A program made the position numbers and the translations under genes. From Gammaproteobacteria bacterium (GTDB taxonomy: Bacteria; Pseudomonadota; Gammaproteobacteria; Steroidobacterales; Steroidobacteraceae), in NCBI GenBank assembly GCA_016874295.1, contig VGUH01000003.1:62001-126000 (forward strand): a DNA stretch of 64,000 nt. Reading direction: 5' to 3'. The notes beneath the pieces were generated by a model. It did no database searches. It was not told the DNA's origin and saw nothing but the letters and a program-made list of their open reading frames with translations. Shown here in pieces: positions 47,480 to 57,385 of the stretch (position 1 is the first letter of the stretch; every line of letters begins with the position of its first letter).

Positions 47480-49516
<2,037 letters not shown>

Positions 49517-49548: not shown

Positions 49549-50583
49549 ATGCCCGTCGATTCTGGCGCGCAGACAGTCGGTCCGTTCACCGAGCTGGTGG
49601 AGTTGTACGGTCCGCGGGTGTGGAACACGCTCGCCGCCAACGTGCCGCGCGACCTGCGCTGGAACTGGCTGCTGCTGATGATCGCGATCGCCCTGCTCAT
49701 CTTTGTGCTGCGCAGGGGGCGCGGCGCGAAGGGGGCGGACGGCCGCGAGCGGTCGTGCGGGCTACTCGAGTACCTGCTGCCGCGCGATATCTACACGCAC
49801 GTTTCAGCGCGCGTCGACGTGTGGCTCTGGGTCTTTGAGCGCGCGCTCCGGCCGTTCTGGGCCGTGCTGCTGCTCGGCTCGCTCGGGCCGCTGATCGAGA
49901 GGACCGTCATCGGAACGTTGACTGCGGGCCTGGGGGCCGGGCCCGCGATCGAGCCGAACCTCGCGTGGATGCTGCTCTACAGCCTGGTGCTGCTGCTCGG
50001 CTACGACTTCACGTTTTTCCTGCTGCACTACGCGGAGCACAGGATTCCGGCGCTCTGGGCCATCCACCAGGTGCATCATTCGGCCGAAGTGCTGACGCCG
50101 CTGACGCGCTACCGCGAGCACGTCCTGGAGGGCCCGCTCTACGCGTCCGCGGCCGCGATCGGCTATGCGGTTCCGGCCGCAGCCTTCGCCTGGCTGTTCG
50201 CGGGCAGCATCAAGGAGATAACGCTCTTCAACATCGGCATTTTCGCGCTGCTATTCGGGTTCAATGGCGCGTTCCGCCATTATCACGTGCAGTTCCGCTA
50301 CCCGCGCTGGCTCGAGCAGTGGCTGCAGAGCCCCGCAATGCACCACACGCACCACAGCTACCTGCCCCAGCACCGGGACACGAACTTGGCCGTCGTCACC
50401 AGCATCTGGGACCGGATGTGCGGCACGCTTTACGTCCCGGCGCCGGACGAGTACACGCCCTGGGGGCTGGGGCCGGAACGCCAGGCCGAGTGCCGCAGTT
50501 TCACGCAGAACATTGCCGCGCCGTTTCGCGACTGGCAGCGGATGCTGCGCGCGACGGCACGCCGGGCCACCCCGCAGCCGTGA
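49549..50583 (+). CDS. Fatty acid hydroxylase / sterol desaturase family protein
   Basis: Integral membrane di-iron enzyme of 344 residues. Histidine clusters: HYAEH, HQVHHS, and MHHTHHSY, in the order and spacing of the superfamily, among four or more membrane segments. It may hydroxylate or desaturate a lipid such as a fatty acid, sterol or hopanoid precursor; the substrate is not shown. A TAGAAT hexamer lies 6 nt before the ATG and would again imply a near-leaderless transcript. The stop overlaps the HiPIP GTG. Confidence 0.88.
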   Translation: MPVDSGAQTVGPFTELVELYGPRVWNTLAANVPRDLRWNWLLLMIAIALLIFVLRRGRGAKGADGRERSCGLLEYLLPRDIYTHVSARVDVWLWVFERALRPFWAVLLLGSLGPLIERTVIGTLTAGLGAGPAIEPNLAWMLLYSLVLLLGYDFTFFLLHYAEHRIPALWAIHQVHHSAEVLTPLTRYREHVLEGPLYASAAAIGYAVPAAAFAWLFAGSIKEITLFNIGIFALLFGFNGAFRHYHVQFRYPRWLEQWLQSPAMHHTHHSYLPQHRDTNLAVVTSIWDRMCGTLYVPAPDEYTPWGLGPERQAECRSFTQNIAAPFRDWQRMLRATARRATPQP

Positions 50584-50870
50584 CGCGCCTGACCCGCCGC
50601 CACTTCGTGTTTCGCGCGGCTTTACTCGGCATCGCCGGCGTCGCGTTCACGCGGGCGGCGCAGGCGGCTGGGTCCTGCGTGACGCCGGAATCCGAGTCGC
50701 TGCGCGCCTCGCTCAACTACGTGGGCACGGCCGCCGACCCGAGCGTGGCCTGCGCGCGCTGCGCATTCTTCACCGCCGACGCGGCCGGCGGGCCCTGCGG
50801 GACCTGCCAGATCCTCGGCGGCCCGGTCGACGCGACGGGCCACTGCGATTCCTTCAGCCCGCCGTCCTAG
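50580..50870 (+). CDS. High-potential iron-sulfur protein (HiPIP)
   Basis: Periplasmic electron carrier of 96 residues with a Tat-like leader (RRHFVFRAALLGIAGVAF). The [4Fe-4S] ligands follow the HiPIP pattern: CARC, then GPC, then a Cys 15 residues later in DATGHC. There are extra cysteines (SCVTP and GTC) not needed for the cluster. HiPIPs accept electrons from bc1 complexes and feed oxidases or reaction centres. GTG start overlaps the previous gene. Its TAG stop lies in a CTAG shared with the convergent cytochrome remnant. Confidence 0.85.
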   Translation: MTRLTRRHFVFRAALLGIAGVAFTRAAQAAGSCVTPESESLRASLNYVGTAADPSVACARCAFFTADAAGGPCGTCQILGGPVDATGHCDSFSPPS

Positions 50871-51421
50871 TCGCCGCCCCGCTGGCGCGCGACCCTCTCC
50901 GGCGTGACCGGCGGCGCGCGGTTGCCCCAGCTCGCGCGCAGGTAGTTGCCGAGCGCGGCGATCTCGCCGTCATCGAGCCGGTCCGCATAGGCGGGCATCG
51001 CCTCCCAGGCCGGCGAGGCGATTGACTCGGGCCGGTCCGAACCGTACAGGATCACGTTGATCAGCGAGGACGCGTCCTCACCCTGCACCACGGCGCTGCC
51101 GGCGAGCGGCGGCCCGTCGAACAGCCCGCCGCGGCCCGAGTCGCCGTGGCATTCGCGACAGTGCTCTTCATAAAGCGGCCTGCCGGGCCGCCCTTCCTCT
51201 GCGGTCGCTGCCGGCCCTTCGTAGTCGGCGCCGCCGAGACTCGCGAGGTACACCGCGATCGCCCGCAGGTCCGCGGGCGTCAGGTGGCGGGTGCTGTTCG
51301 CGATCACCGCGTTCATCGGCCCGAAACTGCCCGCACGCGCGCTGTAGCCTTTGCCGAGGTAGCCTGCGATCTGCTCCGTCGTCCAGGCGCCGAGCCCCTG
51401 CTTCGTCGCGGCGAGATCGAG
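50867..51421 (-). pseudogene. Cytochrome c remnant, 5' part lost (dehydrogenase c-subunit type)
   Basis: About 185 codons with homology to the multi-haem cytochrome c subunits of membrane dehydrogenases. The tail of one cytochrome domain (LGAWTTEQIAGYLGKGYSAR, LTPADLRAIAVYLASLGGAD) is followed by a complete domain with CRECH and a later MPAYADRLDDGEIAALGNYL. The first haem domain and the signal peptide are missing: homology stops at about 51421, exactly where another gene's remnant begins on the opposite strand. The frame stays open upstream but encodes antisense of that other gene. Probably not functional. Confidence 0.75.
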
Positions 51422-51907
51422 GGGCGGCGGCAGGCGATCCACGCGATCGAGGCGCTGAGGCAGTTCATGCCGGGCTGCGAAACGGCCAAGCTGCGGAACT
51501 TCGGCATGACGATCGGCATCCGCGACACGCGCAAGATCGACGCGCTCTACAATCTCACGGCCGCCGACGTGCGCGAACAGGGCCGCTTCGCGGACTCGAT
51601 CGGCATCTTCCCCGAGTTCATCGACGGCTACGGGCTCCTGATCCTGCCGACCACCGGCCGCTACTTCCACGTGCCGTACCGCGCGCTCGTGCCGCGCGGC
51701 GTCGGGAACCTGATCGTCGCGGGCCGCTGCATCGGCGGCGACCGGGTCTCGCACGCGGCGGTGCGCAACATGATGTGCTGCGCGGTGAGCGGCCAGGGCG
51801 CGGGCGTCGCCGCCGCGGTTTCGCTGCAGCGGGACCAGGCGTTCGCGGCGGTCGACGTCGCCGCCGTGCAGGCGGAGCTGCGCCGGCAGGGCGCGCGCAT
51901 CGACTGA
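51410..51907 (+). pseudogene. FAD-dependent oxidoreductase remnant, 5' part lost
   Basis: About 165 codons matching the C-terminal part of the FAD_oxidored family: EALRQFMPGCETAKL, IGIRDTRKIDALYNLTAADV, VPYRALVPRGVGNLIVAGRC and the end helix VQAELRRQGARI. The N-terminal FAD-binding GxGxxG part is missing. Homology starts at about 51410, a few bases past the cytochrome remnant on the other strand, so both genes lost their 5' ends at one point. Either a genomic deletion/inversion or an assembly join. Confidence 0.75.
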
Positions 51908-55966: not shown

Positions 55967-56902
55967 ATGTCACTCGCCAGCATCCTGCTCGCGGCCGCCG
56001 TTACCGTGCCGGCGGGTGTCGCCACCCACGCCGACGGTCGTGCGCCGATCGAGTCGCTCTACCGCGCGAGCCTCTCGCTCGTGGACCGCGGCTGGACGGC
56101 GGAAGTGATCGCCGAGTCCGCGCCGTCAGGCAGCGCGGCGCCGCTGCCCATCATCGCGCTCACTTCGCCCGGCCGGGGACCGGCGGTCTGGATCCTCACG
56201 GGCGTGCACGGCGAGGAGCCGGCCGGGCCCAACGCCGTGGCGGCCTCGATCGAGGACCTCGCGCGGCTCGGAGCCGCGCGGCCGGTCGTGCTGCTGCCGC
56301 TCCTGAACCCGCAGGGTTATGCGCGCAACTGGCGTTATCTCAACGTCGCGACTTATTCGCAGGATGTCGACGGCCAGAGCGTCGGCGATTCCTCGCACCT
56401 GCTGCCCAGCGTGGATGATGCGGCCCGGGCACGCGCCGCGGCGGCGTCGAGCCCGGAGGCCGCCGCCGTCACCGCCTGGATCCTTGCGCGGCAGGCGGAC
56501 TACCCCGCCGCGGTCAGCGTCAACCTGCACGAGGATAACCTGATCGACGAGGGCTACGTGTATTCGCAGGGCGTGCGGGGCGCGCAGGACCCGCTCGCGT
56601 CGTCGGCCGTCGGCGTGCTGCGCGCGCACGGCGTGCCGATCAGGATGAGCGGGACGACGCGCTTCGACGAGCCGATCGAGGGCGGCATCGTCGGCCCGGT
56701 CACCGACAGCTCGGTCGACGAGCTGATGAGCGCGCGCGAGGTCGTCGTCGACGGCCGCGTGCTGCCGGGCCCGCGGGCGGACACCGTGCTGGTGCTCGAG
56801 ACCCCCGCCGCGGCGCTGCCGCTCGCGCAGCGGGTCGCCGCGCAAGCGGCGCTGCTCGGCCTGATCGCGAAGGAACTCGCCGCGCCGGCCGGCGGGCGCT
56901 GA
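55967..56902 (+). CDS. Exported zinc carboxypeptidase/desuccinylase-like protein (M14 superfamily)
   Basis: Protein of 311 residues with a short signal peptide (about 1-23). Metal ligands fit the M14/aspartoacylase pattern: GVHGEEP (H81, E84) and NLHED (second His about 187). NPQGYARNWRYLN and the late ETPAA (catalytic Glu position) support it. It could cleave a peptide or an acyl-amino acid in the periplasm; substrate not shown. An open frame extends upstream, but the ATG at 55967 starts the signal peptide. Confidence 0.8.
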   Translation: MSLASILLAAAVTVPAGVATHADGRAPIESLYRASLSLVDRGWTAEVIAESAPSGSAAPLPIIALTSPGRGPAVWILTGVHGEEPAGPNAVAASIEDLARLGAARPVVLLPLLNPQGYARNWRYLNVATYSQDVDGQSVGDSSHLLPSVDDAARARAAAASSPEAAAVTAWILARQADYPAAVSVNLHEDNLIDEGYVYSQGVRGAQDPLASSAVGVLRAHGVPIRMSGTTRFDEPIEGGIVGPVTDSSVDELMSAREVVVDGRVLPGPRADTVLVLETPAAALPLAQRVAAQAALLGLIAKELAAPAGGR

Positions 56903-56953
56903 ATCCGCGGATGCAGCCGACCGCCGCGCCCCGGGCGCTGTTCCCGGACGGGC

Positions 56954-57385
56954 GCGCCGCGTTTCATCGACAACATGCCGAACAATTTCCCGAATGCCGG
57001 CTTCATCGCGGCGCTGCTGCTCAACGCGAAGATCATCGACGCGCGCCGCCACCCGCTTGACGCCTGCCTGTCGTGCTGGCGGCAGCTGTTCGTCAAGGGT
57101 CAGAATTTCATTTACGACCTGACCGAGATCGGCGAGTACTACCTGCAGTACCAGCGCATGATGGATCACTGGACCCGCGTGCTCCCGGGGCGCGTACTCA
57201 CCGTGCAGTACGAGGAGGTCATCGCGGACTTTGACGCGCAGGTGCGGCAGCCGATCTACGACCGCTCAGTGAGCCATTTCCGCCACTACGAGCATCACCT
57301 CGGCGAGCTGATCGACGTGATCGCGCCGATCCGCGCCCGCTACCGCCGCTATGAACGTCCGGGAATCGCGCCGGGCGGCACGTAG
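56954..57385 (+). pseudogene. Sulfotransferase C-terminal remnant
   Basis: Matches only the C-terminal part of TPR-linked sulfotransferases: FIDNMPNNFPNAGFI, NAKIIDARRHPLDACLSCWRQ, QNFIYDLTEIGEYY, VQYEEVIADF and QVRQPIYDRSVSHFRHYEHH. The N-terminal TPR part and the PAPS loop are missing. Between EEVIADF and VRQPIYD about 40 residues normally present are also absent, an in-frame deletion. No Shine-Dalgarno precedes the ATG at 56975. Its 3' end overlaps the convergent hydroxylase by 37 nt. Non-functional as a sulfotransferase. Confidence 0.8.

Follow-up and report, generated by a model that had tools for sequence, protein, structure and literature searches.

Remnants of a cytochrome c gene and an FAD oxidoreductase gene meet at a probable deletion junction in a Steroidobacteraceae genome

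For clam symbionts, pseudogenes formed by large deletions have been discussed in terms of RecA-independent illegitimate recombination or replication slippage (PMC3202245). The window analysed here is a stretch of 64,000 nucleotides from contig VGUH01000003.1 of a gammaproteobacterium of the family Steroidobacteraceae (assembly GCA_016874295.1). It contains a cytochrome c gene on the minus strand and, on the plus strand, an FAD oxidoreductase gene of the PF12831 family, both truncated at their 5′ ends at a single point at approximately 51404–51421. Chimeric joins in metagenome assemblies would also yield two half genes that meet without a spacer. The junction is best explained as a real and recent illegitimate deletion within a variable interval, a reading to which we assign a probability of roughly 0.65.

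The junction itself (51407–51421, no strand assigned) spans about 15 bases that the edge alignment allows to be assigned to either family, and it may represent a short-homology join. The DNA search places the FAD-side edge at approximately 51404–51413, and the cytochrome-side edge lies at approximately 51415–51421. A sequence-only reading of the window had put the loss of both 5′ halves at 51410–51421, which proves correct to within a few bases. The edge on the FAD side is abrupt. With positions 51261–51570 as the query against 217 genomes of the family, all 68 strong non-self DNA matches (E ≤ 1.2e-20) begin at or beyond 51404, 63 of them at 51404–51413 and five further to the right. The DNA searches covered these 217 genomes and 396 genomes of the order, with the best three or two candidates scored per genome, and on this basis no strong match spans the join outside the window's own genome (G000). 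The join-spanning matches listed from other genomes are short or weak only (E ≥ 5e-6).

The FAD oxidoreductase remnant (51407–51907, plus strand) encodes approximately 166 residues and lacks the FAD-binding N-terminal half. It covers positions 254–416 of the 416-position PF12831 profile (E = 2.8e-43), with positions 1–253 missing, and the full-length profile match and N-terminal GxGxxG motif taken to define an intact member are not found in it. Comparison with the best 80 of at least 455 related loci confirms the C-terminal homology to the family, at 72–87% identity. In 76 of these 80 loci an open frame of at least 291 codons with a GxGxxG motif is present upstream of the matched part, and from the relatives the loss from the FAD gene is judged to be about 0.9–1.0 kb. 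Two loci (L071 and L090) are truncated by a contig end. A further locus (L099) has a shorter frame without the GxGxxG pattern, and in another (L114) the frame breaks just within the match; these two are possibly further pseudogenes or sequencing errors. Across the 81 columns at which 95% or more of the other sequences agree, the remnant shows no departures, a weak test as 50 of the 80 sequences also score zero. This lack of any sign of decay fits a very recent event and an assembly artefact alike. The window's genome also contains a second relative of the FAD oxidoreductase (L015, G000:C18:17874-18368), with 40% identity and an open frame of 472 residues. In the genus mate G001 only a tail of the FAD family is found, with 49% identity over FAD residues 408–487 and 70% over the last 43. 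A search for the upstream part at this locus (L013; G001:C3, 1411-1635) gave nothing convincing within 3.1 kb. The tail could derive from the same gene, as an older remnant at another place, or from a different gene. The other five genus mates gave no FAD match at E ≤ 0.001.

The cytochrome c remnant (50867–51421, minus strand) was delimited by PF00034/PF13442 matches and by edge alignment with relatives. It consists of the C-terminal 184 residues, in a frame that is open to 50867, and contains a single haem motif (CRECH), whereas the frames of intact relatives, of approximately 410 residues, contain three CxxCH motifs; we take the subfamily to be that of tri-haem cytochromes c. The missing N-terminal part carries the two further haem motifs and corresponds to about 0.7 kb of the gene (693 nt by the relative L017). 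At its 3′ end the remnant is arranged tail to tail with a small plus-strand gene (50580–50870) that has no Pfam match and whose product, labelled by eye, is presumably a high-potential iron–sulfur-like protein. Of the 10 fetched cytochrome loci, 5 have a homologue of this small gene in the vicinity of the cytochrome, in three of them tail to tail as in the window, so that the left side of the join has the look of a natural locus.

The two remnants are in all likelihood dead, since one has lost the FAD-binding domain and the other the N-terminal part with two of the three haem motifs. Gene-like open frames of 253 residues (plus strand) and 295 residues (minus strand) are present here, each of which runs through the antisense of the other remnant. 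Functional reuse of these fused frames was considered and is unlikely, one being without the FAD-binding half and the other beginning in antisense sequence with no signal peptide by eye. For annotation, neither enzyme should be credited to the genome from this locus.

The surroundings of the junction were compared by an 18-kb DNA search across all seven genomes of the genus, namely the window's own and six mates. The left block, from pfkA to hppA, is present in all six genus mates with 78–85% DNA identity and ends with a plus-strand gene (47480–49516) which we take to be hppA-like. The single right-hand anchor is a plus-strand gene (55970–56902) that presumably encodes an M14-like deacylase. 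In the genus mate G003, contig C78 and the window are colinear over the stretch that runs from about 19.3 to 49.5 kb in the window, through the hppA-like gene, and C78 then continues with the M14-like gene (at 56.0 kb in the window) in the same orientation relative to hppA. The spacing between the two anchors is 17.2 kb in G003 versus 6.5 kb in the window. As G003 retains the same flanking order but has different genes in between, the interval from hppA to the M14-like gene is, by this comparison, variable. A scan of ten ORFs in the G003 interval identified MtrC/MtrF-like and MtrB/PioB-like proteins, a kinase, a response regulator and a fatty-acid hydroxylase. The MtrC/MtrF-like and MtrB/PioB-like genes are carried by loci L141 and L142 (G003:C78:145001-179900), and the predicted gene content suggests that the variable site of G003 holds an extracellular electron transfer locus.

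Both anchors lie on one contig in one of the six genus mates, G003, where the right anchor is a single gene; no such contig was seen in the other five. On contig C97 of G006, colinearity with the window begins at the M14-like gene and continues to the right. The right-hand order is different in G001, which has this gene on the opposite side of the transporter genes. The transporter genes of the right flank are 78–81% identical in G001, G004 and G006, and 70–73% identical in G002, G003 and G005, the latter values being no better than that of a second copy in G000 (72%). Coverage of neighbouring ORFs was compared with the use of a crude gene caller. Among the 20 G003 ORFs of the colinear block, 19 are covered to at least 81%, one of these by a 27%-identical match only, and the remaining one (130 residues) to 69%. 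Nine of the 12 G006 ORFs are covered to at least 84%, two have no match and the sulfotransferase is covered to 38%. Truncation thus appears to be rare nearby, not general.

The G006 sulfotransferase-like gene encodes 675 residues and directly follows the M14-like gene. At the corresponding place in the window, 5.5 kb from the junction, there is a C-terminal remnant (56945–57385, plus strand; labelled sulfotransferase-like by eye) that shows two losses relative to its G006 counterpart. The 99 bp missing from the remnant lie exactly between two 8-bp copies of CAGGTGCG, which are 99 bp apart in G006. The direction of the change is presumably a loss in the window, G006 providing the only intact copy compared. 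A short N-terminal sulfotransferase stub near 56911, in another frame and seen by eye only, is possible.

The window's own assembly (2.37 Mb in 46 contigs, 98.83% complete and 0.13% contaminated) was searched for the missing 5′ halves with the N-terminal parts of the relatives. Neither half was found, and the matches obtained were fragments of 29–43% identity only. Both remnants therefore resemble deletion pseudogenes: the genes are intact in relatives, and the missing portions were not recovered from the genome. The sequence-only reading had offered two explanations, either a deletion that removed both starts or a wrong join of two contigs. Deletion is the better supported of these, and a misjoin of unrelated contigs is disfavoured because the anchors keep their order in G003 and the assembly yielded no leftover 5′ half.

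We infer a single event that removed about 1.6 kb or more. The deleted segment would comprise about 0.7 kb of the cytochrome gene and about 0.9 kb of the FAD gene, plus anything that lay between them; a possible route of loss is slippage, or the joining of ends, where a short sequence was shared. By eye, a stretch of 9–15 nt at the join is compatible with either family, and the D-L at the edge has its match in one of the cytochrome relatives, L126. The microhomology was tested with simulated joins of the relatives' genes. Under a strict rule 3 nt are shared (P = 0.15), and mean scoring gives −6 nt (P = 0.31), neither of which is significant. A cumulative rule, adopted after the strict result, gives 21 nt with the FAD edge at 51401 (P = 0.08 by the mean, P = 0.59 by the best match). 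The join showed no notable repeat. That the two genes shared a short sequence there is accordingly possible, but lacks significance in the simulated joins.

Taken together, the abrupt FAD edge, the lack of both 5′ halves in the assembly, the anchor order of G003, the sulfotransferase losses and the rarity of truncation nearby support deletion, as do the left block in all six genus mates, the colinearity of G006 on the right and the FAD tail in G001. Against it, the junction occurs in no other genome among the 217 of the family and 396 of the order (best two to three candidates per genome), and no examined locus pairs the cytochrome with the FAD gene. The anchor order is found in one of six genus mates, with a right anchor of one gene and a different right-hand order in G001; the transporter identity is low in G002, G003 and G005, and the overlap at the join is not significant.

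The rival that survives best, which we consider rather unlikely, is a local assembly artefact: strain variants would have been collapsed or merged into a mosaic in this interval, and the genes of the living cell would be intact or differently ordered. The named relatives are mostly metagenome assemblies, going by their record titles, both remnants are open frames, that of the FAD gene without decay, and the restriction of the join to this one genome, within the candidates scored, would also be expected of such an artefact. However, the missing halves are not found in an assembly that is 98.8% complete with 0.13% contamination, one genus mate has the flanking anchors in the same order, and almost all shared genes in the vicinity are of full length. 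The sequence that could be shared at the join is moreover at most about 21 nt, which is short for a k-mer join.

An illegitimate replacement, in which a transferred fragment ending inside the FAD gene broke the cytochrome gene and the two genes were never neighbours, appears improbable. It is nevertheless a live rival because the two genes are patchy and unpaired. With the own genome counted, the FAD gene is present in 28 of 120 family genomes (E ≤ 1e-40) and the cytochrome gene in 18 of 120 (E ≤ 1e-25); five of the six genus mates are without a FAD match at E ≤ 0.001, and G003 has other genes in the interval. The sequence-only reading had held that the FAD family often accompanies such cytochromes and had suggested that an intact locus may have stood here. 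No cytochrome was found at any of the 80 FAD loci (the best of at least 455; 45 of them are flanked by 5 kb or more on each side) and no FAD gene at any of the ten fetched cytochrome loci, so the proposed association is not supported, and the intact divergent arrangement was likewise not found in these 80 and ten loci. That such a locus once stood here can therefore only be inferred. Replacement would require both an incoming end inside the FAD gene and the loss of the cytochrome start, no notable repeat is seen at the join, and the FAD tail of G001 suggests an older presence of the gene in the genus. An inversion with one breakpoint inside each of two co-oriented genes would match the back-to-back geometry of the 3′ halves, but it is highly improbable and was dropped, as the assembly gives no sign of a reciprocal 5′-to-5′ junction and contains neither 5′ half, which also argues against a simple misjoin of two intact loci.

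The double truncation is correctly placed and represents an ordinary kind of genome decay. If the deletion is real, it adds another case in which genes were recently lost from a variable interval. It is a decidedly doubtful proposal that, in this genus, the stretch between hppA and the sulfotransferase remnant forms a hotspot where genes are gained and where short-homology deletion proceeds rapidly. If that were true, adjacent scars that differ in age could serve as a time series for the loss of genes from a partly reduced genome.

The junction shares with the chimeric joins of metagenome assemblies the appearance of two half genes without a spacer, and differs from them in that one genus mate keeps the gene order and the missing halves were not found in the assembly. 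From the deletion pseudogenes of clam symbionts (PMC3202245) the present case differs in that one junction truncates two genes, the repeat at the join is a candidate only, and the genome, at 2.37 Mb, is not of symbiont size. The likeness to that system lies in the gene remnants left by large deletions and in the neighbouring sulfotransferase remnant of the window, one loss of which falls exactly between two 8-bp copies.
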